A stretch of 26,018 nucleotides of DNA, taken from positions 1 to 26,018 of IMG/VR virus record IMGVR_UViG_3300034082_001545, one strand, 5' to 3'. Source of the stretch: a virus. Positions 4,780 through 24,418 of this stretch are shown here, one piece after another (the first letter of the stretch is position 1; each line of letters opens with the position of its first letter). Made by a program: the position numbers and the translations under genes. The notes under the pieces were generated by a model that was given only the letters and a program-made list of their open reading frames with translations, was not told where the DNA came from and did not search any database.

Positions 4780-5130
4780 TTATATTACACAAGAAGGGTC
4801 TGAATATACAATAGAAAAATTACAATTTGCTTCTTGAATATCAATATTGACGACACAAGAAGCCAATTCAATAGTAATTTGGAAAGTACAACCAAAAGTA
4901 CATTGTAATAATTTAAAAATACTACATCCATTGTTATCCGTTAAGGTTAACATTATCTCAGGAGCAGTATTAAATATTGAAGGTATTGTGTTATTATATT
5001 CAACTGTAGGTGGAACGGGTCCTGTATTTATAGTACCAAGTAAAGTTTGATAGTTCCCATATACATCTGATATATAGACATCAATTGGGTATGTACCTCC
5101 CGATATTTCCGTTATTCTTACCTGTATCAT
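4780..5130 (-). CDS. Small Cys-rich SprB-like single-domain protein (116 aa)
   Basis: An in-frame TTG at 5139 would give 119 residues, but the ATG at 5130 overlaps the upstream TGA as ATGA (5127-5130) and is the better start (MIQVRITEISGG). Residues about 5-80 resemble one SprB-like repeat: a SGGT motif near the start, a beta-rich middle, then LTLTDNNGCSIF, which matches the VTDxNGC end of the repeats in the gene just upstream. The C-terminal third has six further cysteines (LLQCTFGC, ASCVV, EANCNF, DPSCVI). There is no signal peptide. It is translationally coupled to the SprB-repeat gene and is probably an accessory or cap for that fibre; function unknown. Confidence 0.75.
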   Translation of the reverse strand: MIQVRITEISGGTYPIDVYISDVYGNYQTLLGTINTGPVPPTVEYNNTIPSIFNTAPEIMLTLTDNNGCSIFKLLQCTFGCTFQITIELASCVVNIDIQEANCNFSIVYSDPSCVI

Positions 5131-7262
5131 GTTAAACAAATTGTATCATAAACGATTATCAATTCAATAATAATTTCCTGACCATTTAAACTATTGTTAG
5201 TTGGACTTGTTTGAATTATTATTTGATTATTGGCAGAATCTACCGTTATTACACCAATACCAGGTATTGTATTTAATAAACTAACAACTGTATCATAATA
5301 ATCATTATCACTTGGTGCAACATTTAAAGATGTTGTTGTAAAGAACGTATCACTTGTTGTTATACCTAAAGGATTTACGGAAACTTTAACTGTAAAAGTT
5401 GCAGATATTAAACTACAACTTGTATTTCCCGAAGTTAAATCATCAAATCCAACATTCAACATTTGTAACAATCCAAACTTAGTTTGTGATTGAATGTTAA
5501 ACACTTGAGACCCCATTACATAAGTTTGATAAGAAACATATGCCGCATCACAAGTAATACTGGTAGTTCTTGATAATGAACATCCATTATCATCAACTAT
5601 TGTTAAATTGTATGTTCCACCTGTTAAACCTGTGACAGTAATTTCTTGTGGGTTATTAGGTATATTATCAGACCAAGTAAATACGAAAGGTGGAGTACCA
5701 GATGAGATAAATGCAGTTAACATCCCATCAGAACCTGTACCACAGGAAGTGCTATATAAACTATAATCTAACGGTGAACTTTCCCCAACATATACTTGAG
5801 TAGTTTGGGTACAACCCGTACTATCTGTAACGGTAATTGTATGTTGTCCCGATGAAACATTATCAAATGTAATTGCAGATAATGTAGTATCATTTATATT
5901 AACTAAACCATCTAATGAATAGTCAAATGGAGATTCTCCCCCATCACTCTTGTTAACTGTGATATAACCATTATCACGATTGCAAGTTGTTCCTGTAGTT
6001 TCAGTGGAAATTGTAAAGGTATTAGTAGCATATAATGTAACCTCATCCATATAAAAACATCCCGATTCATCTTGAACCGAAACTGAATATGTTCCCGAAG
6101 CTAAATTTGAAAATAATTGAGTGGTTTGATTATTACTAACATTTAATGTATTCCCATTAGGATAAATTAAAGTATAGATATAAGGCGATGTACCTCCAAT
6201 AACCGAAACAGTTATTGAACCACCATTACTTGAACATGTTGAACCTTGTGTTGAAATACTAACAGACGTTATACCATTTGGTGATGTTAGAGTTGTACCT
6301 ACCGTGATTGTACATAAAGCTGCATCGGTAACTTGGAAAGAATAATTTCCTGGTGATAATCCAGATATTGACCATGATGTCGGATATTGGACCACCACTT
6401 GACCTGTGGATGCAGAATAGTAATAAGGTGCGGTTCCTCCCGTAATTTGAATGGTTAAAACTCCATCGGCGGAAAAACAAGTTGGTTCCGTTGCTGTAAA
6501 TATTCCCAACCCTATTGGCGGTACATCAACAATTGTTGCAGACTTTGTTGTCACACATCCATAAAAATCTGTGACACTAACAGAGTAATTTCCCGCAGTT
6601 AATCCAGTTACAGTTGACCCTGTGGCACTTGTGTTCCAAAGATATGTATATGGTGGACTACCTGTTAAACCAGTAATCATAATTTTACCCATAGCACTAC
6701 CTCCGCAAGATGAGTTTGGTACCACATATAGTCCATAATCTAATGTATCGGAATCTTCAACGATAAAATTGGCACTTTGTCCTGTACAACCACCCAAGTC
6801 AAGAACAGTTATATAATATGTTCCCGCTGTTAGGCTTCCAAATTCAACGGTAGATTGGCTTGTAGTTGCAGATTGAGAAAATACCCCATCTCCATGATAT
6901 AAATAAAAACTTGTTGAGGAATAATCAGATGTCGATGTTCCTGTAACTGCCCCGTTATTTTCAGAACATGTTGTTCCCATAACTCCAAGAATACTTGCAC
7001 ATACCCCACTTGATACTGGTATATTAATGTAAAATTCACTATTTGTTGGTAGGGTACTATCATTAACCCTAACCGCATATGTTGTGGCGCTTAATCCCGT
7101 TTTAACCGCAGGTGATGTTGTAACAATATCAGGTGATAATACAGGACTTAACCATTGTACTGTATATGGTGGAGTACCACCAGTCAAAGTCAAACTAATT
7201 GACCCTGAGTTTGTATTTGAACAATCCCCCGTAACCGCTATGTTATAATTAAACACTGACAT
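5127..7262 (-). CDS. SprB-repeat (Ig-like) fibre or adhesin protein (711 aa)
   Basis: ATG at 7262 overlaps the upstream TAA as TAATG. The protein consists of seven repeats of roughly 75-85 residues (about 5-85, 86-170, 171-246, 247-327, 328-411, 412-492, 493-571), each with the SprB pattern: a Cys near the start, G-x-I-x-V/I-x-I-x-GG-T/S-PPY in the middle, then GL-x-x-G-x-Y-x-V-x-V-x-D-x-x-G-C. The clearest copy is repeat 3 (GSPPYTYLWN, TGLTAGNYSVSVTDFYGC). Residues 572-711 form a different C-terminal domain without repeats. In Flavobacteria, SprB-type repeats build cell-surface gliding adhesins; here there is no signal peptide or type IX secretion C-terminal signal that I recognise, and the gene sits among virion genes, so a tail-fibre role is inferred. 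Repeat 2 lacks the GGTPPY segment and repeat 6 has GGESPFDY instead. Confidence 0.85.
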   Translation of the reverse strand: MSVFNYNIAVTGDCSNTNSGSISLTLTGGTPPYTVQWLSPVLSPDIVTTSPAVKTGLSATTYAVRVNDSTLPTNSEFYINIPVSSGVCASILGVMGTTCSENNGAVTGTSTSDYSSTSFYLYHGDGVFSQSATTSQSTVEFGSLTAGTYYITVLDLGGCTGQSANFIVEDSDTLDYGLYVVPNSSCGGSAMGKIMITGLTGSPPYTYLWNTSATGSTVTGLTAGNYSVSVTDFYGCVTTKSATIVDVPPIGLGIFTATEPTCFSADGVLTIQITGGTAPYYYSASTGQVVVQYPTSWSISGLSPGNYSFQVTDAALCTITVGTTLTSPNGITSVSISTQGSTCSSNGGSITVSVIGGTSPYIYTLIYPNGNTLNVSNNQTTQLFSNLASGTYSVSVQDESGCFYMDEVTLYATNTFTISTETTGTTCNRDNGYITVNKSDGGESPFDYSLDGLVNINDTTLSAITFDNVSSGQHTITVTDSTGCTQTTQVYVGESSPLDYSLYSTSCGTGSDGMLTAFISSGTPPFVFTWSDNIPNNPQEITVTGLTGGTYNLTIVDDNGCSLSRTTSITCDAAYVSYQTYVMGSQVFNIQSQTKFGLLQMLNVGFDDLTSGNTSCSLISATFTVKVSVNPLGITTSDTFFTTTSLNVAPSDNDYYDTVVSLLNTIPGIGVITVDSANNQIIIQTSPTNNSLNGQEIIIELIIVYDTICLT
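5550..7250 (-). repeat. Array of seven SprB-like protein repeats
   Basis: The repeats are diverged at both protein and DNA level (no long identical blocks), unlike the near-identical minisatellites in the two genes downstream. This indicates an old array under structural selection rather than recent slippage. Conserved markers are the repeat-initial Cys and the terminal D-x-x-G-C. Confidence 0.8.
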
Positions 7263-10246
7263 TATCTAGTACAATTTATATTAATATTTATTCCTACGTT
7301 TAAAACTACCGTTTCTTGTAAATTTTGGGAAACACATCCTAAATTAGTTATTGTTAATGTATTACCATTTAAGAAATATGTGTAGCCATAACCATATAAA
7401 GTTGGTAGATAATCTATTAAAGCGTTTCTCCACTGCGAATCTGTTGGTACATCATTATAACCATACCCATTATAAAAACTATCTTGAATTATGATTTGGT
7501 TATTAATTCTTAAATCAACATACCATTCTGTCTGAACTGAATTTTGATAACATTCATTAAGTGTTAGTCCACTTGATGATAACATATTATTAATTCTATT
7601 TGCAAGAATACTATTAAAATCAGATACATTAATATCACCATTTAACCACGGATAAATATAAAATTCAACATACTCTGAATTACATGTGTAATCAAAAATG
7701 TTTGATATAATATAACATGGGTCAACAGGTACTGGTATAAACTGACAACCTCTTTGTCTTCTATAAACAAACTTTTGTTTATGTAGTACAGAGTTTTCGA
7801 ATCTAACCCCGCCATTCCAAATGGTTGTTGCGGGAACCATCTGTTCCACCAACTTAGTCCAATAAGGACCTATACCATTAACGTAATCGATTAACTTTTG
7901 ATACGTGTACTTGTTGTTGGGCAACCCGACAGTTTGTTCTGATTCGATGTATTTCCACCAAATAGATTGTAATGTAGGATAACCACCCGTTTTACCATCA
8001 GAGATGTATTGTCTGTTTCGAGTGTTAATCATATTCTGCCAAAAAGTTTGAGAGAATTCAAAGAATGTTTTCTTCTTAGGCTTAGGGTCAACATATGTCC
8101 AATCAACACCACCTGGTACAGGATAACCAACGGTTAAACCTGATTCAGGAATTGGGTAATCATATCTTCTTGATTGGTCCCAAACATCATAAACAAGACC
8201 TTGGGCCGGATTTAAGAATATGTCAACGTTCTTTACGTTTAATACTAATTTTTCATTATCGATAAAGTAGTATGCATTGTAATCTCCTTGAGTTGAAACT
8301 CTAATTTTATCATCGTCCGCTAACCATGATTTATTATTATCAACAACTTTTTGAAGTTTAAATCCTTCCGTCATATAAGGGAAGTCCCTAAATCTATTCA
8401 AATAAGTCTGACCGTAAGTAAACGGTTGTAATTGTGTTTGGATACTAAAGTTTTGTCCTGTGTAAACATTTCCCGTAAGTACAACATTATCAGGACTTCT
8501 ATGTGATGGTGTAGTTTCATACCAACCAGCACCAATTTGGAAGAAGTATGTTTCCGTATTGACAGGAGCTTTTGGATATCCTTCAAAATCTATAGGGTAT
8601 GCTGCTAATGTTATATTAGTATCAGTATATGTTGCGGTTTCTGTAAATGCAGTATAAATTTGTCCATAAATACTATATGTTTGACCTACAGCATAAGATG
8701 GTGTTTCTTGAACGTAAGTACCACCTGAAATTTGAGCCCATTGATTATAGAACTGGTCAAGATTAATTTTTTGGTCAGCCAAATAAATGTGTTCATTATA
8801 TTCAATTAGTGAATCAGGTGCTCCAATCAATCTTAATAAAAATTCAACAGACCTTCTCGTACCTTTTGATTTAAAAAGGTATGAGGCATTAAGAATTAAA
8901 TTTCTATAATATGCATAGTTTAATTCTGTTGGCGTTAAAGCTCGAGCATAACCAGGATAAGTTGGTGTCGATGTATTACCAAAAACAGATGATAAGAAAT
9001 CCTCATTTGTAATTGGTGAAAAATTAGATGACCATCCTAATGTTTGAGATAAATTAGCCAATAATTGTGAAGGTATATCATTTGATGGATTATAGTTTAC
9101 AGAATTCATGTAAGCCAACCCTTCGATAAATTGTTTTATTTGGTCAAAACTTCTACCGTAAATTTGGAATATCTTTTCAACTTTTCTACCCAAAGTATCA
9201 AATTCTTTTAAAGAATCTGAAATTAAGAATCTTGAAATTAAATTGGTCTTAAACGAATCCAAATTAACCGCAATTGCTTGGATTTGTTCCAAGTATGAGT
9301 CAAATAAGAATGAACTAATATCTAAGTTCCAAGGACCATCTTTTGGCCAAGTCACTTGTTGATAATCCGTATATGTTTGACCAAATTCATTTTGTTGTGG
9401 TACTTGAAATACCGCAGTATATTCAGGTCTAACTAATCTATTAAGTAAGAATTTTTCAACCTCATCAAAACTTTCTTGAAATATTTTGTCAACAATATAA
9501 TCATTTGGTCTGATTTGATATTCTTGTTGGATTGTGGTTGCCGTTGTTCCAAATGGTGAACCAGAAACGTAAAATGTAATATCACCTGATGTTAATGTGG
9601 TAGACGGAATAAACGCCAAAACCTTATAGATATTATCATCAATGCTAACACAATAATCTAAATAAGTGTTGTTAAGATTTCTATATGGCGAAACATCTAA
9701 CTCTCTCAATGTTAAGTTAGTTGACGCACTAATAGAATAATCAATATCAAATGGATTTTTTATTCTATCAACATTAACCTTGAAATATGTTTCATCATTT
9801 TGAACATCATAAACAATATCATAAGCAGTATTACCTGTTGAGAAATCACTATTAGTAAATATAATATCTAAAGACGCTGGGAAATAATTAATAACACGAG
9901 TAATTGAAACCCTAAATCTTTCAGATAGAGAACCATACATCGAAAAGTTAAGAACTTGAGTAATATCAAAGTTTGGATAAACTCTAAATTGAGTTGCAAG
10001 TATTCTTCGACTCTCTTCAACACTATCAATATTCATCATATCCAAAGTCATTGGTTCTGAGAACGCTCCGACATTGAATGTACGATTAACTTTTTCTGTT
10101 ACTCCTGTTGTAAACTCAAAATTACCTTGCGTAAGTCCTCCACCCTCGACAGTTTGTAATCCTACAATGTTGTCAGAGAAAGTCCCCCCGCCATTACCTG
10201 GTCTTGGTGGATAAAAGTATTTAGTATTTGTTGTGTTTACTGCCAT
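7262..10246 (-). CDS. Large tail/baseplate structural protein (994 aa)
   Basis: ATG at 10246 overlaps the upstream TAA as TAATG. No enzyme motif. Residues about 250-400 look helical, and residues 440-487 (YYRNLILNASYLFKSKGTRR...LLRLIGAPDSLIEYNEH) resemble the 'short chain, then SKGT, then helix, then IGAP' pattern often seen in phage tail/baseplate proteins of the P2 gpI type, so this part may be a baseplate attachment domain. Residues about 780-830 (TKLVEQMVPATTIWNGG, QKFVYRRQRGC) are strongly basic and aromatic. The last 160 residues contain five cysteines and YGYGYTYF, and look like a separate beta-rich domain. By length (T4 gp7 is about 1030 residues) and position it could occupy the role of a large wedge subunit or of a fibre connector to the SprB-repeat protein downstream. 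Neither is proven by the sequence. Confidence 0.7.
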   Translation of the reverse strand: MAVNTTNTKYFYPPRPGNGGGTFSDNIVGLQTVEGGGLTQGNFEFTTGVTEKVNRTFNVGAFSEPMTLDMMNIDSVEESRRILATQFRVYPNFDITQVLNFSMYGSLSERFRVSITRVINYFPASLDIIFTNSDFSTGNTAYDIVYDVQNDETYFKVNVDRIKNPFDIDYSISASTNLTLRELDVSPYRNLNNTYLDYCVSIDDNIYKVLAFIPSTTLTSGDITFYVSGSPFGTTATTIQQEYQIRPNDYIVDKIFQESFDEVEKFLLNRLVRPEYTAVFQVPQQNEFGQTYTDYQQVTWPKDGPWNLDISSFLFDSYLEQIQAIAVNLDSFKTNLISRFLISDSLKEFDTLGRKVEKIFQIYGRSFDQIKQFIEGLAYMNSVNYNPSNDIPSQLLANLSQTLGWSSNFSPITNEDFLSSVFGNTSTPTYPGYARALTPTELNYAYYRNLILNASYLFKSKGTRRSVEFLLRLIGAPDSLIEYNEHIYLADQKINLDQFYNQWAQISGGTYVQETPSYAVGQTYSIYGQIYTAFTETATYTDTNITLAAYPIDFEGYPKAPVNTETYFFQIGAGWYETTPSHRSPDNVVLTGNVYTGQNFSIQTQLQPFTYGQTYLNRFRDFPYMTEGFKLQKVVDNNKSWLADDDKIRVSTQGDYNAYYFIDNEKLVLNVKNVDIFLNPAQGLVYDVWDQSRRYDYPIPESGLTVGYPVPGGVDWTYVDPKPKKKTFFEFSQTFWQNMINTRNRQYISDGKTGGYPTLQSIWWKYIESEQTVGLPNNKYTYQKLIDYVNGIGPYWTKLVEQMVPATTIWNGGVRFENSVLHKQKFVYRRQRGCQFIPVPVDPCYIISNIFDYTCNSEYVEFYIYPWLNGDINVSDFNSILANRINNMLSSSGLTLNECYQNSVQTEWYVDLRINNQIIIQDSFYNGYGYNDVPTDSQWRNALIDYLPTLYGYGYTYFLNGNTLTITNLGCVSQNLQETVVLNVGINININCTR

Positions 10247-11178: not shown

Positions 11179-12288
11179 TTAGTTCTTTTTTTCAACGTTA
11201 AAAAATCCATATCCGTAATTAATCATGTCACCTAAATTGTCAACCTCCCCTAATCTTTGGATTCTTTCGTATGCTGAATTCTTTCCTCGTTCAACAAAAA
11301 CATTTGTTTGTATTTGTGGTTGGTCAATAACTTTGATTAAAACTTCCTCTTTTGTTATTGGTCTTTGTGTTAAATTATTCTCTGTAAATCCTGAAGATTG
11401 TTCAAAAAATATTGTTGTCCCGTCTATGTAATCATAGTAATCAACCAAATTAACTGTATAGGCGGTGAATGTTGTTGCAGTATTAGTTATCGCCCCCCAT
11501 ATTTGACCGTTCTTAATAACGGGAACTCCAACTTGGAATTTTAATGGTCCATACATCGCCAACTCATTAAGTTTGGATTTTGTTAAACCTGAAACCGTAA
11601 ATGGAACCGTTGTAAAATTATTTGATGTTTGAGCAGATACTTCGTTAACGGCATCTCCTGAAAATATGTAGTTATAACTGATTGGAGTTTCAATCCAATT
11701 ACCACCCACAGGAATAAAAAACGCTTCACCATTTGGGTTATTAATGACCACATCAGAAAATGGTGTCGTGATTGTTTTGGAAACTCTTGTAATTCCCCAC
11801 GGATTTGTTTGTTCCAATGTAATTGTATATTGAGCAATTGCAACAGGATAAGTGTGTACGATTGAATTGGGTGTGTATGAACTAATGGTTTGCGATGGCG
11901 TCCCATCACCCCAACTAACCTTATAAGATGATAAATCAAGAAATTTTTGAAACTCACTTGATGTATTATACACATTATAAACATATGGGTTTGAAGTTGT
12001 TGATGAGAATATAAAATTGGCAACCACATCTTTCTGTAATACCGCTCCATCAAATGGACTAAAGTAACCAACGTCAACCGCAGTTTGTCTGAATAAAATT
12101 GGAATTGTAATTCCTGATAATATTGAACTTCCATTTGGTCCCGCAGTCAATACTTGGGTCATCCCCGAATAAACACCAGTCGTTTCACCAGTATAAGTTG
12201 GTCCAACGTTTTCACCTTGCATATTAACAATAAACAAGTCACCCTTAATTGTTTCAGGTGATATTATAATATTATAAAAATCTTCCAT
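11179..12288 (-). CDS. Structural protein with a PKD/Ig-like domain (369 aa)
   Basis: ATG at 12288 overlaps the upstream TAA as TAATG. Residues about 85-175 show the hallmark of a PKD-type beta sandwich: VSWGDGTPS at 124-132, then VHTYPVAIAQYTITLEQ about 15 residues later. PKD and related Ig-like domains in phage virions sit on the exterior and bind weakly to surfaces or sugars; in this context a baseplate or tail decoration role is inferred. N- and C-terminal parts (about 1-80 and 200-369) are not recognised. The C-terminus ends in a basic, aromatic stretch (GYGFFNVEKKN). No signal peptide. Confidence 0.72.
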   Translation of the reverse strand: MEDFYNIIISPETIKGDLFIVNMQGENVGPTYTGETTGVYSGMTQVLTAGPNGSSILSGITIPILFRQTAVDVGYFSPFDGAVLQKDVVANFIFSSTTSNPYVYNVYNTSSEFQKFLDLSSYKVSWGDGTPSQTISSYTPNSIVHTYPVAIAQYTITLEQTNPWGITRVSKTITTPFSDVVINNPNGEAFFIPVGGNWIETPISYNYIFSGDAVNEVSAQTSNNFTTVPFTVSGLTKSKLNELAMYGPLKFQVGVPVIKNGQIWGAITNTATTFTAYTVNLVDYYDYIDGTTIFFEQSSGFTENNLTQRPITKEEVLIKVIDQPQIQTNVFVERGKNSAYERIQRLGEVDNLGDMINYGYGFFNVEKKN

Positions 12289-13109
12289 TATGGGTTAACA
12301 TATTCATACCATTTTATGGGTTCCAATGTACCCGCCCTTTGAGCATCATTAAGATATATTGTTTGATTTGGATTCATGTTGAATATTTGATAATCATGTT
12401 TTTCATAATTTAATTCAACACGATAATAAAAATATTGTGAACCATCAAAGATATATTTGTTACCAGGTAATGATGATTGTGGCATATTCATCATCTTTGT
12501 AAAGTATCCATTTTTTGCATCATAGAACTTGGCAGTCATATAAAATGTTTTGATATCCAAAAATGTTCTTTTCTTTAACCAATAGATAAAGAAACCTTCT
12601 TTGTCTCCAACATAGTCCAAAACAAAATATGGTTTTTTAATACTAACAGGTGTCGTCTGCATGATTGCGTCCATCTTTAACCCTTGTTGTGTCGGTATAA
12701 TAATTGTTATATAATTGGTCTGTCTTTTTTCATCAACATTGTCATACAAATCCAATTTAAAAAATGAATTGGTAAAGTTGTTTGTATAATAAAAAATCTC
12801 TTGAGTTGTAAACCCTTCCACCTGATAATTGGACTTCCAATTTGTAGCATCATTTAAAGAACCTCCTGAATAAAAATTAAACTCATATTTAATATCCGTT
12901 GGTTCAGTTGTTGTACCTGTCAAAGGTGCATGAGCAAATCGAGTTACCTCAAAATCTCTACCAACACCAATAACCTCAGTAATGATTTTACTTTCGTATT
13001 CATCAATACTTTGGTCCAACCCAACATAGTCCCACGTTAACTGAATGGGGATTGTAAGTTGTCGGTCAACAAAACCGTCTAAATTAATTTTAACTTTATT
13101 CACACTCAT
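12288..13109 (-). CDS. Unrecognised structural protein (273 aa)
   Basis: A TTG at 13112 could add one residue, but the ATG at 13109 (MSVNKVKINLDGF) is the likelier start; it overlaps the end of the upstream gene by 14 nt, which suggests coupled translation. The stop overlaps the next ATG (TAATG). The protein is rich in Tyr, Phe, Lys and Asn with alternating hydrophobic residues, hence probably mostly beta. The segment at about 170-215 (FFIYWLKKRTFLDIKTFYMTAK) is aromatic and basic, but too charged to be a membrane helix. No domain recognised; a baseplate-associated role is inferred only from position. Confidence 0.68.
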   Translation of the reverse strand: MSVNKVKINLDGFVDRQLTIPIQLTWDYVGLDQSIDEYESKIITEVIGVGRDFEVTRFAHAPLTGTTTEPTDIKYEFNFYSGGSLNDATNWKSNYQVEGFTTQEIFYYTNNFTNSFFKLDLYDNVDEKRQTNYITIIIPTQQGLKMDAIMQTTPVSIKKPYFVLDYVGDKEGFFIYWLKKRTFLDIKTFYMTAKFYDAKNGYFTKMMNMPQSSLPGNKYIFDGSQYFYYRVELNYEKHDYQIFNMNPNQTIYLNDAQRAGTLEPIKWYEYVNP

Positions 13110-14784
13110 CAAACAATGGCTTAATTGGGTACTGAACCCCTAAAGAGTTATAGTTTATTCCTTCAGGTATTAATCTAAAGATGGCTTCTTGATATGGATA
13201 TTGAGCGCTGTTCATAAATGGGAAATCAACACCCCTTTCAAGGTTATCCTTAAACCCATAAGTATATATGTCTCTCCATCTAAACGATTGGTCGGCAGAA
13301 GAATAAAAAGAATAGAAAGGCACATTTTCAACTTGTTCCGCAACCGCAGTCTCAACATAATCAGAGAAAACTCTAATCCTCATTGATGTGTGGGGTTTGT
13401 AATAAAATCCAGGACTATTTGTTGAATATGTTTCAGTAGTTTGAAATACGTTTTGATTGTAATTCAGTTTTTGATAGTATGGTGAAATAACCCTTTCAAT
13501 TTGGTTATAATCATTCCACTCACAAAAGTCACCATCAATTAAATCATCTTTTTTTAAATCTTGATTATAATAAAATGTTTTTGTAACACCACTAGTCAAA
13601 GTATAATTTGATGTTTGTATGTTTGTATCGGAATAAGTATTTTTTAAATCCCACCAAGAACTTATTGGCCTTGTCAAATTAAACTCCCAACCTTGTTTTA
13701 ACCCTATACCATTATTTGGTTGATTAAAATATCCCGTATATCCTTTATTAATAATAGTTAAAAATAATTCACTAACAGGTCGTTTTTGATTATCCAACAC
13801 TCCATTTAAATCTAAATCGTAATTGACCGTAACATTATATGAATTACTACTAGTCTTTTGAGATATTCTTGAAATTTGGTTTGGTGTTATTGAACTATAT
13901 TCAAATTTTCTCTCTTCGTTAAATAGATTCTTTTCAAACGCATTTTTAACCATAATACAATCTCCAACATTTGTTAAAATTTTATGTTCCCTCACATAAT
14001 ATTTTGACTTTGTTTCCAATAAATTATCAGGATTAATAACTCTTTTAAATGTTCCCGTAACTCCATTGGCAAATGTGGTACCCGTATATCCAAAATTGAA
14101 TAGGTTAAAAACGTAGGGGTCACTATCTAATTGGTTATTACCCAATGAATAAACTTGGAATAAATTTAATTGATTATAAAAGAAAGGTAATTCAACATAC
14201 TCACCAACAGTTAATCCGTGTGGTGCAATACATTGAAATCTAATAACATTACTACCATTTTGAGTTCCATTAATAATTGAAAATGGAATACCTTCGGACG
14301 CATACCAATCATAACTACTATTATTTAATGTGTATGACATTTGTTTTAAATAATTGTTACTTTGAGCATAACTAATATAATATGTCCAATTGTATGTGTA
14401 GGCACTTTTTGCAACATAATTAATATGTTGGTCAGATATGTTAGGCCTATAAAAATCAAATTCATAATATTGTGGAAATCCTTTCCATATAGTACTAACA
14501 AAAGATTGTTCGGGATTAACATAATATAAAGTATTTCTAAATGGAACATATTCAGTAGTACCTGTATATGTGTTACCATACAAATAATTAACTTTGAATG
14601 TGGGTCTGAATATACCACTACTTTGTCTTTCATCATCAAATACTTGAGCCAAACTAATACTTTGACTTCGGTCATATTCAACCATTTGTTGACTCTGTTG
14701 CTCTAAAGTAATAGTGATATCTTGGTCAACTGATGGAGCCGCCTGATATTCCTGACTACTCGGTATAATTGTAAACTTATTCAC
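13096..14784 (-). CDS. Unrecognised structural protein, GTG start (562 aa)
   Basis: The start is a GTG at 14784, which overlaps the upstream stop by 8 nt (GTGAATAA). No ATG is available before residue 34, so the GTG is preferred; it is the only non-ATG start I accept in this window. The protein is exceptionally rich in Tyr, Asn and Ser. Residues about 186-200 (CIAPHGLTVGEYVEL) resemble a short 'HGL-x-x-G-x-x-V' beta-hairpin motif found in several phage tail proteins. DLDLNGVLD near residue 325 resembles an acidic calcium-binding-like loop, but a single copy is weak evidence. No signal peptide or membrane segment. Role unknown; baseplate or tail component from context. Confidence 0.7.
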   Translation of the reverse strand: MNKFTIIPSSQEYQAAPSVDQDITITLEQQSQQMVEYDRSQSISLAQVFDDERQSSGIFRPTFKVNYLYGNTYTGTTEYVPFRNTLYYVNPEQSFVSTIWKGFPQYYEFDFYRPNISDQHINYVAKSAYTYNWTYYISYAQSNNYLKQMSYTLNNSSYDWYASEGIPFSIINGTQNGSNVIRFQCIAPHGLTVGEYVELPFFYNQLNLFQVYSLGNNQLDSDPYVFNLFNFGYTGTTFANGVTGTFKRVINPDNLLETKSKYYVREHKILTNVGDCIMVKNAFEKNLFNEERKFEYSSITPNQISRISQKTSSNSYNVTVNYDLDLNGVLDNQKRPVSELFLTIINKGYTGYFNQPNNGIGLKQGWEFNLTRPISSWWDLKNTYSDTNIQTSNYTLTSGVTKTFYYNQDLKKDDLIDGDFCEWNDYNQIERVISPYYQKLNYNQNVFQTTETYSTNSPGFYYKPHTSMRIRVFSDYVETAVAEQVENVPFYSFYSSADQSFRWRDIYTYGFKDNLERGVDFPFMNSAQYPYQEAIFRLIPEGINYNSLGVQYPIKPLFDECE

Positions 14785-17700
14785 CTACAGAATATTTTGT
14801 TTTAAATTTATCTAACGCAGTTAATCCTTTATTTACTCCAAAATAAAAATGGAATGGAGCGCTAACTAAGAATTTATTTGGATAAGTTCCCGCATTGTAA
14901 GAATATGAACCATTAGGGTTTACATTAAAGATATAACCTCTTTCGTATATATCACTTACTTGTGAATTTGACCCAATAAAATAACTTGGCGACCCAATAT
15001 TTCTTCTATCTAATGATTGATAGTTATATCCAAAAATACCTGAAGTATTAATATTTGATGATTGATTTGTAACCCAATCATTGTATTGTGAACCAAAAAT
15101 ACTTTGTATTGATGGTTGATTTAATCCCCACTGATAAAACGGTACATACTGAGATTTAATACCATAAGGATATGTTATAGCATTTGCATTATTTGATGGT
15201 CTAAAATCAATAACTCCAGGCGTTAAGAAGTCTTTGTTTTGTAAATCAACTGTGGTAGAAGAAAAGAAAACACCCATTGTTGGGTCATCAAGTCCACCCA
15301 AAATAACAACAGGGTCATTACTTGTACCATAAACACTATAAAACTCAGGTGAAAAAGGTATTACACCATACTCAGAATTAATTGACATACTTTGAGCTAA
15401 ATCACCATCAATTCTTCTATCGGGTCTGGTAAATAATTGATTCAATCCATTATTACCAAAAGTAAAAAGTTGAGCCAAATATCCTTCGTCTGTAATACGA
15501 GATATAACAAATAAATTTACCAAATCTGAAGTATCCGAATAACTTGTTGGATTTAATGTATTCATTATGTACCCTTTAGCTGACGGGTCAAAAATTATTT
15601 CTTGATAAAAATCATCTTTAATACCCAAATTAACAATTGTTGTTGGGAACAATAAATTTCTGTCATTAACGGGGTTTATTAATCCAAGAGTTGGTCTTCC
15701 AATAAATCTTGGTGATGTTGTTCCTGACAAATAAGGTGAACTTCTGTAATAGAAGTTATTAGTCTTATCATCAAAATAAACAAGTTCTTTGGCAAACTGA
15801 GGTGGTAATGGTTTATTTTGTTGGTCAAAATAAGTATCAACTTGTATTGGAAATGTGTATAATGAACCATTTACCCAATTGTTGGTAAATGTTTGAGATA
15901 AAACACCTCGACATAACCCATAGAAAAATCTAAATCTAAATCCCCACTCACTAAACGCCCTTAAATCTTTTTGTAAATCTGTCCAAGGATTAACCGCAAA
16001 AACATAACACCCATTTTGAACTGAATCACTACTTTGACATCCCGCAGTAACACCAAAATTAACACTATTACCACTATAACAATTAAGACCAACCATTCTC
16101 TCACAAGTACTTAATGACTCTAACACATTGACACTAGCAAGTTGACCCTCAATATCAGCATTAACTTGAGATGCACCTGTATCGTAACCACTTACATTAA
16201 TGGGTGCTCCTTGTCCACCAATAATATAAGCAGAAAATCCTACGTTTTGTTGTAATAAACTAACACTACCATTTATAACACCACTATCGATATAATCAGA
16301 TGATGGTAATCTGTCAGTTCTCATAACATTTCTTGAAGAATTGACAATGTTCAACGCACTTGAACCCGTTAATGTTGGATATAAAATTGGGCTAAAGTAT
16401 ACCCTACTCGGTGGGTCATTATATGCCTTATAAGAGAGCAACGGGAATATCACATTTAAAATAATAGTATTTAAAACTAATGGAGTTAACTTTAATATTG
16501 CACCACCCGATAAATCCTCGGCGGTATCATACTTACTAACCGATATTGCGGATGAATAATAATCATTCGATGTTTTGGTTACCACACCATTAGCTATTCC
16601 ATATGACGGACTTTTATCAATGAATACTGTTGCTGGTACAAAAACATTACCAAATGTTGGACCTGAATTAATAGTTCTATCGGGAGTTGTTGAATCTAAT
16701 GCCCCATAAAATCCAACATTACTTGTGGTGTATGAAGAAAATTGTAAACCAGGTGTTGTTGAACCTACCACACCAGGACTATAAACATAAGATGAAAAAT
16801 AAATATTATTTTGAACGTTATGTTGTGGAACAGTAGTTACTGAACCTGTTGGTAATTTTTGAACAGGTATATTCATTTTTGTTGTTGCCGTAATGATTAC
16901 GTCGTTTTCATTTGGGTATCCCAATATCTTACCAATACCATATTGATTAATTAACGTTGGGGAATATGGGTCAACCCCTCTTTGTAAAATTAAAATTTTT
17001 GAGTCAGAAAAATCCGCAAAATTACTTATGGCTAAATTTTGTTGTGCTCCATCTTCAAGCCACCCATCACTACCTAAATTGCCTTTAACTTCTTTATAAA
17101 TTTGAACTGAGCTTGGTGCAGTTAAATAGTTCCAAAACCCAACACCACTACCTAAATTAGGTATTGAATATTGTGGTACACCATTAACAATATTTGTTGT
17201 AATTGTAATAGCAGTAAGTACTTGATAGTATTCAATATCTGAAGGATATACATATCTTTGACAACTTTCACCAAAACTAACTACCGTATATTCTGCAGTA
17301 CCACCTAAATTAGTTGTACTTATACAATTAACATTTGTTATTGTATGAGACCCTAATGTTAACGCACTATAAATAACAATCCCCCCATTACAAGTATTAT
17401 ATGTCACCGTACCTGAAGTAGTAACATCTATAGTAATACTATCAACACACTCAGTTGTTGCACTTGGTATAGTATATAATGTAGTCGATTCCGTAGTTTG
17501 ACTATTATCTGTTGGAATTGCATATTTTACTTGAGTAGTAAATTGGTCAGTTTGAATTCTACCATTTATTCCTTGTAACACTGAACCACCAGTAGTTCCT
17601 GTCCACAAATAATTTTTATCTGTGGTTAATGATGGATTCACAAAAGTTAATAGAGTACCTGGTTCAAATTCTTCAGGTGATAATATAGTTAAAGTATTAT

Positions 17701-19960
17701 CATAATGATACAAACCTACAGGATTATTTACATCTGAAGCAAAAGTAGCTTTTATTCTATTAATCCCTTGGAAATATTTATTTCTAACATTAAAAGTGTT
17801 TATCCTTTCTCCTGGTGTTATTGTTTTTGAAACAGCAAATCTTCGAGTATTATCGCTGTCAGGAAATGTAACAATAGAACTCACACCATTTTTGTATGCA
17901 GATGGATTAGTATTACTAGAACCAAATCCTGCAAGTGCCTCACTTAAAATTTGAGCATATAATGAATTGTTCGCTTCGTAAGTATCATCACTTGGAGATT
18001 GTGATGTTGCCCTTTCTTGAGCCTTAACTAAATTTTCATAATATGCCGATGAATTAGATAATTGACTAACTAAAAAAGACTCAGTGGCGTTTGTAGAAGA
18101 CTGTAGAATCTCTGGGTCACATTCACAAGCCTGACAATCGGGATAAGTCACCATTGGTAATTTAAAAGGTCCAAACCTTAGTTGTTCAATGAATTTTTTT
18201 ATTTTCTTTGCTTTAATTAACAAAATTGTCCATACGGTCAACTGTAGTACCGCAGATACTACCCCCGCAATACTAACACCAAAAGACGCAATAATTAACG
18301 CAATATAAACCGCAACCAAAAATCCAAACGCAATAACGTTTTTAATAATCCACCCAATTAATGCAATAATTAAAGGTTTCGCATAATTTTCTAAAATTGC
18401 CGCAGCAATATGATAAACAATTAATAATGGGATACCAATTATTTGAACCAATTGCATTAAAATTGCAAATAGAAAGAAAATAAAATCAAAATTTCTAAAA
18501 CCTTCATTTACAGGAAATTTATTAATAGTACTTTCACAATCTTGACTGTCAATTTCTTTAATCCCAATAAACCTACCTCTTCCACCATTTTTAAATTCAT
18601 CAATTAACCCTGAAACCGTGTAAACTTTATTAAAGTCAAATTGATAAAAAGTATCATCACAATTTATTGCCGCTTGAGTATTTGTGTATCCGGTCCAATC
18701 TAATCCAAAATAATATGAACCAGCCAATTCTGCGTTAGACGATGGGTTAAATTGTAAATTTGGGTCAATTACCGAACTTGTCCATCCATACTCTTTAATA
18801 TTTGGAACTAAAAAATATGGTCGTCTTGTTTGTTCAGTTAATGCCGTTGGTTGAGTCCATTTAATTTTAAATCTATATTTTGCCTTAGTTGGAATACCTA
18901 TTGTTGGGTCATTTGATATAACTCTTTCACCAAATTCATTAGTTATATAATAATCTAAGTTCATTGGTAATTCAGTTAACCAAACACCATCACCATCAAT
19001 AATATTTCCAGATTGTTCTAATTGATATTGTTCCAGTATTGGATTACCAATAGTATCTTGTTGGATGGTTTGTCTAATTGCTAATATTTGTCCAGGTCCT
19101 GATTGTAAACTACAAAGATTACCCATATCATCTTTAGGTTTTGCATTTCTCCTAACTCGGTAAGCGTCTGAAGTGGAATAAATTGAACCCATAAAAACAG
19201 ATGTTGGTTGTATATTAACATTTGCCTCGTCTCTCAAATCAAAATCAAGACGATTAATGGCAATGTCACAAATATCAGGGTCACCCCAAAGTGGTGATAT
19301 TTCAATACCTTTAACCAAATTAATAATTTGAGGTAATGAATTTAAATCTGTTGATGTTCTAAAACGATTACCCGCAACTTGAGCTTCAGTTGCAAGACCC
19401 ATTCTAATTAAATCCTGTGGTGTCAATGAAAACTCTCCAATATCAGACAAGTCAACATCCATAACAACAGTTTGAAACCCTAATGGTACCCCCATTATCA
19501 TGTAATCCCCACTATCATTTGTTTTGGCCGTGAACTTATAATATCTGTCATATATTTCAACAGCGGTTGTTCCTGTCAGAGCATCCAATCTTGATGGTAT
19601 TGTACCTGTTGCTGCGTGAACAGAATAAGATTTTTCATAAGGTAATAAGTTGTACCTATATCCATCTTCATTTTTATCTGAAGGTGATTTATATGGGTAT
19701 ATACTTGAAATAATTGGGTTTGATTCATCTACCGTTGTAATAGGTATGAATATTGACACTCTTGCGTTTGGTAATCCAAAACCATTGTTAGCGGTAACCC
19801 TACCAACAATAACTCCATAATCGGCACAACTTCTTATATAGACATCTTCTTGTTGTATTTTTAAAGATAAAATCTCTAACTGTTCAAACTCTTGGTCTAA
19901 TTGTACGTTGATTGTTTTGTTAACCCCTAATTCAGTCCTTATTCTATATGATTGACCCAT
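14777..19960 (-). CDS. Giant baseplate/tail protein with membrane-spanning cluster (1727 aa)
   Basis: ATG at 19960, in a 92 bp gap carrying the TATTTAT-N4-TAAA element. Residues about 46-165 look like a carboxypeptidase-regulatory/transthyretin-like beta domain (GVIVGRVTANNGFGLPNARV, then FTAKTNDSGDYMIMGVPLG). Residues about 491-583 are almost continuously hydrophobic (FDFIFFLFAILMQLVQIIGI, then two more such stretches), enough for three or four membrane helices, and are followed by a basic stretch (KAKKIKKFIEQLRF) and a CxxCxC motif at 609-614. The remaining 1100 residues are Ser/Thr/Asn/Tyr-rich, beta-like and unrecognised. A membrane segment inside a virion protein suggests that it is delivered into or onto the host envelope, or that it acts inside a tail channel; both are inference. 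The gene directly follows gp6-like and occupies the place of T4 gp7, but I see no gp7 similarity. Confidence 0.78.
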   Translation of the reverse strand: MGQSYRIRTELGVNKTINVQLDQEFEQLEILSLKIQQEDVYIRSCADYGVIVGRVTANNGFGLPNARVSIFIPITTVDESNPIISSIYPYKSPSDKNEDGYRYNLLPYEKSYSVHAATGTIPSRLDALTGTTAVEIYDRYYKFTAKTNDSGDYMIMGVPLGFQTVVMDVDLSDIGEFSLTPQDLIRMGLATEAQVAGNRFRTSTDLNSLPQIINLVKGIEISPLWGDPDICDIAINRLDFDLRDEANVNIQPTSVFMGSIYSTSDAYRVRRNAKPKDDMGNLCSLQSGPGQILAIRQTIQQDTIGNPILEQYQLEQSGNIIDGDGVWLTELPMNLDYYITNEFGERVISNDPTIGIPTKAKYRFKIKWTQPTALTEQTRRPYFLVPNIKEYGWTSSVIDPNLQFNPSSNAELAGSYYFGLDWTGYTNTQAAINCDDTFYQFDFNKVYTVSGLIDEFKNGGRGRFIGIKEIDSQDCESTINKFPVNEGFRNFDFIFFLFAILMQLVQIIGIPLLIVYHIAAAILENYAKPLIIALIGWIIKNVIAFGFLVAVYIALIIASFGVSIAGVVSAVLQLTVWTILLIKAKKIKKFIEQLRFGPFKLPMVTYPDCQACECDPEILQSSTNATESFLVSQLSNSSAYYENLVKAQERATSQSPSDDTYEANNSLYAQILSEALAGFGSSNTNPSAYKNGVSSIVTFPDSDNTRRFAVSKTITPGERINTFNVRNKYFQGINRIKATFASDVNNPVGLYHYDNTLTILSPEEFEPGTLLTFVNPSLTTDKNYLWTGTTGGSVLQGINGRIQTDQFTTQVKYAIPTDNSQTTESTTLYTIPSATTECVDSITIDVTTSGTVTYNTCNGGIVIYSALTLGSHTITNVNCISTTNLGGTAEYTVVSFGESCQRYVYPSDIEYYQVLTAITITTNIVNGVPQYSIPNLGSGVGFWNYLTAPSSVQIYKEVKGNLGSDGWLEDGAQQNLAISNFADFSDSKILILQRGVDPYSPTLINQYGIGKILGYPNENDVIITATTKMNIPVQKLPTGSVTTVPQHNVQNNIYFSSYVYSPGVVGSTTPGLQFSSYTTSNVGFYGALDSTTPDRTINSGPTFGNVFVPATVFIDKSPSYGIANGVVTKTSNDYYSSAISVSKYDTAEDLSGGAILKLTPLVLNTIILNVIFPLLSYKAYNDPPSRVYFSPILYPTLTGSSALNIVNSSRNVMRTDRLPSSDYIDSGVINGSVSLLQQNVGFSAYIIGGQGAPINVSGYDTGASQVNADIEGQLASVNVLESLSTCERMVGLNCYSGNSVNFGVTAGCQSSDSVQNGCYVFAVNPWTDLQKDLRAFSEWGFRFRFFYGLCRGVLSQTFTNNWVNGSLYTFPIQVDTYFDQQNKPLPPQFAKELVYFDDKTNNFYYRSSPYLSGTTSPRFIGRPTLGLINPVNDRNLLFPTTIVNLGIKDDFYQEIIFDPSAKGYIMNTLNPTSYSDTSDLVNLFVISRITDEGYLAQLFTFGNNGLNQLFTRPDRRIDGDLAQSMSINSEYGVIPFSPEFYSVYGTSNDPVVILGGLDDPTMGVFFSSTTVDLQNKDFLTPGVIDFRPSNNANAITYPYGIKSQYVPFYQWGLNQPSIQSIFGSQYNDWVTNQSSNINTSGIFGYNYQSLDRRNIGSPSYFIGSNSQVSDIYERGYIFNVNPNGSYSYNAGTYPNKFLVSAPFHFYFGVNKGLTALDKFKTKYSVGE

Positions 19961-20052: not shown

Positions 20053-21891
20053 TTAAGAAAAAGTAATTGATTGGAAGTTCTTAACCGAAACTCTAATGTC
20101 TTTACCTGGATATCTAATCTGATACACTTGTGATGGTTGAGCAAATATGGTATCATCAACAGGACCAATAAGTTTTAATTCTGGGTCTGAGTATTCCATA
20201 GAGGTTTCTGCCGATGAATATTGACCACCAACTTCATTAAACACATCTAAAGTTGAAACGGTTAATACCCCATTTGTATTTTGAATAATACTTCTAATCT
20301 CGGATAGATAAACATTCTGACCTAATTGTCTTGATAGAGGGTTAAAGTATGCAGATATTTTATCAATAACACTTGAAATAACTTGTCCTGAGTTTTGAGC
20401 TGAATCTAAGACAATCGCAACATCAACACTCAAGTCAATAACCTCAGCACTGAATATTGAAATATAATCATTCATCATTCGGTAGTTTGATAAATAATTT
20501 GCAATGTTTTGTCTTAAAGTATTTGAAACAATATTGGTTAATTTACCTGAAGTATCGTAAGATAAAATTTGAATTAAAATTTTATTATCATTTTCTGTTA
20601 TAGATACTTTTGCGGGTGCTCCAAATTGAGCTGGCATGTTTCTAATAATTGATTCGTAATCCTGTACGGTAACCGCTCTCTTTTGAGCTGCAAAATTAAA
20701 TGATACATAGTTTCTAATTTCCTCTAATGATGGAATACCCGCTCCACCTACCGCCGCAGTTACGTTAACACATCTTAATGAATTAACTACCGCTGAGTTT
20801 GTTGTCTCAGATGGACCATTAACAAAGAATGAAACAGTACCAATTTGATTGATTACGTTTGTTCCTAAGTTTGTTGCCAATCCACCACCAACTCTATATT
20901 GAATGAACAATGTTGAATTTGGTGTTAATGTTGAACCTAATGAGAAATTGTTAGAATATTTTTGAAGTTCTAATGTTGTACCTAAAGTTGTGAACTGGTT
21001 CAATTGGTCTTGTGCGGTATTGGTACCACCACCAAATGTCATTTTCTTAAATCCTTCAGGTGTATATTCGGTAATAAATCTATCTTGAGTTTGGATATAC
21101 TTACCAACTTTAATACCAGGTTGGTCAGAAACTTTTGCAGGGTCTTCAATAAAGACTCTATCTTCAGCCAATGCATCCACTTCATACCATCTATTATCAA
21201 CACCTAAAAACTCTGCAGTTGTTGGTGTGTTTGTATATTGTGTACCATTCTTTAATAATACACTTGTAATGCCTAACACATTTTTTTCAGGTAAAAATAA
21301 TTCAAAGAATGGTTTAACATCATTTGCACCAATAACTCGTTTGAATACCTTTGTAATACCATTTACAACAATTTCTCTTTTTGTGATTGTATAATTAACT
21401 AAAATATTATTTGAGTTAAAGTTTGGTATTTTTAATCTATTGGGAAAACCTTGAGAATTATATGGTGAAGCAAAATCAATGTCATAAACATTTTCAAAAA
21501 CAATTCCGGCTCCAACAACTTGTGAACCTCTTGTCAATGTTCCAAGATATCTTTCATCTTCTTTATCACCAAAAGCAGGGACTGTAATTGAGAAATCAAC
21601 TAAAGCAACTGATGGTCTTTGTCCTGGTAATTTTAAACCGTAGGTTCTGGCTATGTTATAAACTGATGACCTTTGTTGAGCATATTGTAAAACAGTCTCC
21701 TGAATACTTCGGTCAATGTTATAATGTAAGTTGTCCGCAATCGCGGCGTTTAAATCAATGAATACGGAGAAGACCGAAGCATCGTTAAAGTCTTGGATTA
21801 AGTCAGGATAGTAAGTTTTAGTATAATTCAAGAGCTCGGTCCTGATTGACTGATAATCCCTAGATGCGTATGATATTCTATTATTTGCCAT
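20053..21891 (-). CDS. Baseplate wedge protein, T4 gp6-like (baseplate J family) (612 aa)
   Basis: ATG at 21891, 5 bp after the gp25-like stop. The N-terminus has the family's opening: SRDYQSIRTELLNYTKTYYP at 10-29, then a helical region DFNDASVFSVFIDLNAAIAD and LHYNIDRSIQETVLQYAQQR, followed by GLKLPGQRPS. Near residues 405-418 is the AVTVQDYESIIRNM motif typical of baseplate-J-like proteins, followed by the C-terminal domains. T4 gp6 is about 660 residues, so the length fits. In contractile tails gp6 dimers form the inner ring of the baseplate wedge and contact gp25 and gp53, in agreement with the gp25-like gene directly upstream. Intact, no oddities. Confidence 0.88.
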   Translation of the reverse strand: MANNRISYASRDYQSIRTELLNYTKTYYPDLIQDFNDASVFSVFIDLNAAIADNLHYNIDRSIQETVLQYAQQRSSVYNIARTYGLKLPGQRPSVALVDFSITVPAFGDKEDERYLGTLTRGSQVVGAGIVFENVYDIDFASPYNSQGFPNRLKIPNFNSNNILVNYTITKREIVVNGITKVFKRVIGANDVKPFFELFLPEKNVLGITSVLLKNGTQYTNTPTTAEFLGVDNRWYEVDALAEDRVFIEDPAKVSDQPGIKVGKYIQTQDRFITEYTPEGFKKMTFGGGTNTAQDQLNQFTTLGTTLELQKYSNNFSLGSTLTPNSTLFIQYRVGGGLATNLGTNVINQIGTVSFFVNGPSETTNSAVVNSLRCVNVTAAVGGAGIPSLEEIRNYVSFNFAAQKRAVTVQDYESIIRNMPAQFGAPAKVSITENDNKILIQILSYDTSGKLTNIVSNTLRQNIANYLSNYRMMNDYISIFSAEVIDLSVDVAIVLDSAQNSGQVISSVIDKISAYFNPLSRQLGQNVYLSEIRSIIQNTNGVLTVSTLDVFNEVGGQYSSAETSMEYSDPELKLIGPVDDTIFAQPSQVYQIRYPGKDIRVSVKNFQSITFS

Positions 21892-21896
21892 TTGTA

Positions 21897-24418
<2,522 letters not shown>

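Follow-up and report, generated by a model that had tools for sequence, protein, structure and literature searches.

A family-wide hydrophobic block in a baseplate-cluster protein of uncultured T4-like phages, a candidate membrane-entering hairpin

The window analyzed here is a stretch of viral DNA of 26,018 nt, positions 1–26,018 of the IMG/VR record IMGVR_UViG_3300034082_001545, and all features described below lie on its minus strand. A gp25-like baseplate wedge protein (21897..22367; PF04965, E 9.6e-12; phrog_261, E 3.3e-18) precedes a gp6-like baseplate wedge protein (20053..21891; PF04865, E 5.5e-8; phrog_219, E 8.5e-24), and directly after the latter comes an ORF of 1,727 aa (14777..19960), called P0001, a protein of the tail/baseplate cluster that has no named relative. 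It overlaps by 8 bases with a 562-aa ORF directly downstream (13096..14784). The same neighbors recur throughout the family: relatives with the hydrophobic block described below, which the initial annotation had suggested looking for beside gp6-like genes, have gp6 directly upstream in 115 of the 115 loci that extend far enough for a verdict, and the 562-aa ORF follows directly, overlapping or abutting, in 97 of the 97 testable loci, although these counts include near-identical contigs and so are not all independent. The proposed location in the baseplate region is thus borne out, and it is mainly because of this gene order that we regard P0001 as a probable tail or baseplate component, presumably located in the virion. 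Upstream of the wedge genes, the window contains a ribonucleotide reductase (22559–24418) that weakly matches the insertion domain of the B12-dependent class II enzymes; at the corresponding position, the relatives G001 and G005 have an 808-aa ORF.

Residues 491–614 of P0001 correspond exactly to window positions 18119–18490. Five charged residues occur among the first 93 of them, residues 491–583, whose mean Kyte–Doolittle hydropathy (KD) is 1.91, far above the 1.14 of the best window of that length in 1000 shuffled versions of the protein; the hydrophobic stretch claimed in the initial annotation is therefore real. The maxima within this block are 2.70 for a 19-residue window and 2.25 for a 45-residue window; in the other tail-cluster ORFs of the window that were tested, the 45-residue value never exceeded 0.78. 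The block is long enough for at least two transmembrane (TM) helices, and a simple home-made TM model, an approximation of our own with thresholds to match rather than a calibrated predictor, found three segments in it. Since the P0001 ORF is intact and closely conserved across dozens of separate contigs, an assembly or frame artefact is ruled out.

Searches of P0001 against Pfam, PHROGs, and PDB sequences gave no match, and a tblastn search of a cultured-phage collection found no homologue. Uncultured viruses, by contrast, hold hundreds of relatives: two scans of IMG/VR recovered 147 and at least 546 confirmed related stretches, respectively. GTDB genomes yielded 26 pattern matches, none of which was confirmed. 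When a distant family member was compared with cultured phages at E values up to 10, four weak matches of 50–62 residues appeared around its hydrophobic stretch. The phages carrying the family have the marks of T4-like contractile-tailed phages, with a gp23-like capsid protein and a sheath (phrog_23, E 2.9e-54) in the relative G001 and gp25 and gp6 in the window. The capsid protein of G001 is nearest to those of LR756508 (an uncultured 484-kb phage), Microcystis phage Mel-JY01, Flavobacterium phage immuto, and Rhodothermus phage RM378, and gp6 is nearest to immuto, LR756508, and Mel-JY01. Because RM378 is the cultured representative of the Far-T4 group (PMC4360716), a Far-T4-like placement of the P0001-bearing phages appears likely from these similarities. 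The Far-T4 phages (RM378 and freshwater contigs) and immuto thus resemble the P0001 phages in their T4-like capsid and gp6, but a profile search of the whole records of immuto, Mel-JY01, LR756508, LR756511, RM378, and T4 found no relative of P0001; a single match at E 0.09 was interrupted by nine stops and was discarded.

Several ORFs toward the other end of the window are repetitive. A 711-aa ORF of the tail cluster (5127–7262) contains SprB repeats (PF13573, E 9.1e-23), known from the gliding-motility adhesins of Bacteroidota, and these repeats together with the closeness to immuto are suggestive, though only that, of a Bacteroidota host. Beyond it lies an 855-aa ORF (2128–4695) consisting mostly of T/P-rich repeats of the TQTPT type, with no Pfam match, and a collagen-like repeat ORF (3–2093; PF01391, E 7.2e-59) remains open at the window end. 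Among the unannotated ORFs of G001 are one of 696 aa (positions 11299–13389 of locus L162) and one of 2,516 aa (11029–18579 of L159), both without a PHROG or Pfam match, the latter adjoined by an ORF of 1,675 aa.

The position right after gp6 had led the initial annotation to see in P0001 a counterpart of T4 gp7, a claim that did not hold up in profile comparisons. An hhalign comparison of P0001 with T4 gp7 gave no significant alignment, and none of the profiles matched by T4 gp7 itself (PF21427, PF21428, PF21456, and phrog_964) was matched by P0001. A better candidate for a gp7 or gpI-like wedge protein lies further downstream in the same cluster, in a 994-aa ORF (7262..10246). In blastp comparisons, which rest on single sequences as do all those of this ORF, it matched a 1,336-aa protein of Mel-JY01 (E 2e-8) and proteins of immuto and LR756508 (E 0.002). 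This ORF has the region of a wedge-type KGT motif in common with the large protein encoded downstream of gp6 in each of Mel-JY01, immuto, and LR756508; within the cluster of the P0001 phages, the motif sits in the 994-aa ORF and not in P0001. A search of nine records with PF09684 (Tail_P2_I) gave two matches only, both below threshold at E 0.024, one to the LR756508 protein and the other to the counterpart of the 994-aa ORF in the relative G002, where it falls at the KGT motif. The same search found nothing on P0001 and nothing on T4 gp7 either, which makes it a weak test of P0001. The alignment of the 994-aa ORF with T4 gp7 by hhalign was not significant, and we assign it as the putative gp7 or gpI-like wedge protein of the clade with moderate confidence.

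Comparison across the family separates the block into parts that differ in conservation. The first part, residues 491–534 (18359..18490), is hydrophobic in every member: over these approximately 44 residues, all 75 members measured have 0–4 charges and a mean KD of 1.2–2.6, leaving room for two helices of about 18–20 aa that flank a conserved Gly, often as G-x-P. The first of these has a mean hydrophobicity <H> of 0.83 and a moment of 0.29. The second half, residues 535–590 (18191..18358), is present in about 60% of the relatives and has the lowest identity of the regions compared, with a mean pairwise identity of 0.27 against 0.77–0.79 in the flanks of the block, while its KD stays at 1.30 ± 0.21 among 44 long-form members; such low identity within a narrow range of hydrophobicity is consistent with selection that maintains hydrophobic character and not a particular packing. 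Membrane-compatible hydrophobicity is accordingly kept across the whole P0001 family. The total length of the block is bimodal, 42–85 aa in 30 of 75 members and 95–142 aa in the remaining 45, and in the short forms the tail of the block is shorter, more polar, and often Cys-bearing.

The number of predicted segments follows the length. The TM model scored two segments in 25 of 31 short forms and three or four in 43 of 45 long forms, and in 61 of 76 members it found none beyond the block. About 40% of the members have the shorter block with one or two TM-like segments, a few short forms scoring just one. The three to four helices of the initial annotation are consequently right for this phage, which has three segments, and for most relatives with a long block, but not for the family as a whole: since only the first ~44 aa are common to all members examined, the higher number belongs to this phage and its nearer kin. 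We also considered a strictly even number of crossings, toward which the counts lean in the short forms, and rejected it, as 18 of the 45 long forms score three.

Cysteines frame the block on both sides. Cys475 (18536..18538), ahead of it, and the three cysteines of the C609-x-x-C612-x-C614 motif behind it (18119..18136), which lie within a conserved YPxCxxCxC, are invariant in 90 of 90 aligned sequences, and the CxxCxC at residues 609–614 had been called exactly. The KAKKIKK patch between the hydrophobic stretch and this motif, on the other hand, is present in P0001 but absent from every other aligned relative, and we rejected it as a functional patch; a net positive charge is still found in the region in most relatives. 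Conserved flanks that enclose 42–142 aa suggest an insert that is looped out with its ends close together, and the strands bearing C475 and C609/C612/C614 probably hold these ends in place.

We modeled P0001 in two parts with AlphaFold2. The model of residues 1–760 has a mean pLDDT of 59 and is helical at 488–558 and 564–593, with pLDDT below 50 in the flanks of the block; it draws 488–558 as a single long helix, without a clear hairpin. Its N-terminal part contains a beta-rich domain at residues ~45–170 (19451..19828), with pLDDT of ~75–86 over much of 51–170, that Foldseek likened to prealbumin-like or Cna-B-like folds, the best match being 3qec (E 3.7e-4), followed by pilin and intradiol-dioxygenase domains. 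The second part, residues 640–1727, was modeled with a mean pLDDT of 76 as mostly beta, and a search of this model against the PDB and BFVD returned no credible match.

To judge how unusual such a block is, we turned to the proteins of T4 and to other large tail proteins. Among 21 structural and tail-assembly proteins of T4, the highest 45-residue KD was 1.09 in comparison with 2.25 in P0001. At 19 residues the T4 set is topped by gp7, with 2.07 against 2.70, and gp7 was the only one of 11 T4 proteins in which the TM model found a segment. This TM-like helix, at residues ~883–905 (positions 9707–9775 of locus L192; around 886–902 by a narrower estimate), separates the Pfam domains V and VI of gp7 and is kept in three other T4-like phages (Lw1, 50AhydR13PP, and EniLVp02); the annotation of NC_000866 gives gp7 a predicted integral membrane domain at its C-terminus. 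T4 gp7 is nevertheless a wedge protein of the virion, seven solved entries of whose sequence exist. The premise of the initial annotation that baseplate proteins are normally soluble is thereby weakened, and TM-likeness alone proves little for a protein of this kind. Among the ORFs of at least 350 aa in the relatives G001, G002, and G005, three TM-like segments were found in P0001 only, the others having none or one, and the likely tape-measure and other large tail proteins of these relatives lack several strong TM segments. The tape measure of G001 is likely to be a 616-aa ORF, judging by its position near the tube gene and a sub-threshold match to PF10145; its 19-residue maximum is 1.20. P0001 itself was considered as a tape measure, which would be expected to be mainly helical, encoded near the tube gene, and matched in length to the tail, and was rejected because outside the block it models as largely beta and G001 has this separate candidate.

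The reading that we tentatively prefer, and to which we give not quite an even chance, is that P0001 is a clade-specific tail or baseplate component that stores a hydrophobic hairpin in the virion and brings it into a host membrane at infection. The block would form a helical hairpin that loops out between the conserved strands bearing C475 and C609/C612/C614; its smallest version would have two segments, and there may be as many as four in this phage and the relatives closest to it. In the virion, the hairpin would be shielded; rearrangement of the baseplate or contraction of the sheath would expose it, and the exposed hairpin could then insert in a host membrane, where it may anchor the baseplate or line the path of the DNA. 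Release on contraction and formation of a pore, both proposed in the initial annotation, may be part of this, and the membrane concerned may as well be the outer one, holding an anchor, as the inner one that the annotation named. A membrane role is favored by the high hydrophobicity of the first helix with its modest moment, by a hydrophobicity of the block beyond chance and beyond all 21 T4 proteins, and by tape-measure candidates in G001, G002, and G005 that lack several strong TM segments. The hairpin shape is disfavored by the single long helix of the weak AlphaFold2 model and by the long forms that score three segments, in which an even number of crossings is not preferred. That the membrane-crossing helices of this clade reside in a dedicated baseplate protein instead of the tape measure, and that several copies released by contraction together form an anchor or conduit through a host membrane, seems to us rather unlikely, if well short of implausible.

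The most serious alternative, which we doubt but consider a real possibility, is that the block is a buried element that never meets a membrane, being packed in an oligomeric helix bundle of the baseplate or covered by a chaperone during assembly. T4 gp7 sets the precedent with a conserved TM-like helix in a virion wedge protein, the hydrophobic regions of the TP901-1 tape measure may serve in the recruitment of chaperones (PMC5099701), and AlphaFold2 draws one long helix. Against this, gp7 reaches a KD of just 0.73 over 45 residues, compared with 2.25 in P0001, and tight packing normally conserves sequence, whereas the second half of the P0001 block is the least conserved part and varies in length yet is still hydrophobic. 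It is improbable that P0001 stays out of the virion and works in a membrane of the infected cell, say as an assembly platform of the host inner membrane whose gene lies in the tail cluster: several TM-like segments would permit residence there, but the place of the gene between gp6 and a downstream tail-cluster gene is invariant in all testable loci and the block starts only at residue 491, behind the beta-rich N-terminal part. Least probable of all is that P0001 corresponds to gp7 with its hydrophobic region expanded, for although the gene lies directly after gp6, as gp7 does in T4, and gp7 likewise has one hydrophobic helix, P0001 shows neither profile similarity to gp7 nor a PDB sequence match, its C-terminal half has no fold match, and the 994-aa ORF is the better candidate.

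The passage of DNA through the inner membrane is an unsettled question for contractile-tailed phages, and a review of T4 calls a conduit made by the tape measure likely (PMC9022992). A hydrophobic hairpin kept throughout a family of baseplate-cluster proteins, in phages whose tape-measure candidate has none, would give this question a concrete and testable part. Many uncultured relatives of T4, but none of the cultured phages tested, encode a P0001 protein, which may help them to hold on to the host membrane or to breach it. Of the known systems, T4 gp7 resembles P0001 in being large, in having its gene directly after gp6, and in its conserved TM-like helix; it differs in having one helix instead of a block of 42–142 residues, and the two have no detectable sequence similarity. 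The helix of gp7 shows that a TM prediction alone is ambiguous for a baseplate protein. The tape measure of TP901-1, a virion protein, has a pair of hydrophobic regions, each with three putative TM segments, that the authors of the study could not tie to membrane insertion (PMC5099701); unlike P0001, it is a protein of a lactococcal siphophage. The closest published parallel to the hairpin reading appears to be pb2 of T5, in which 46 hydrophobic residues are read as two TM helices and have been proposed to insert in the outer membrane at infection (PMC10038345). The shortest blocks of the P0001 family, at 42–46 residues, match this long hydrophobic stretch in size, but pb2 serves as tape measure in a noncontractile tail, whereas P0001 is beta-rich, lies beside gp6, and belongs to a contractile-tailed phage in whose relative G001 the 616-aa tape-measure candidate is a separate protein.
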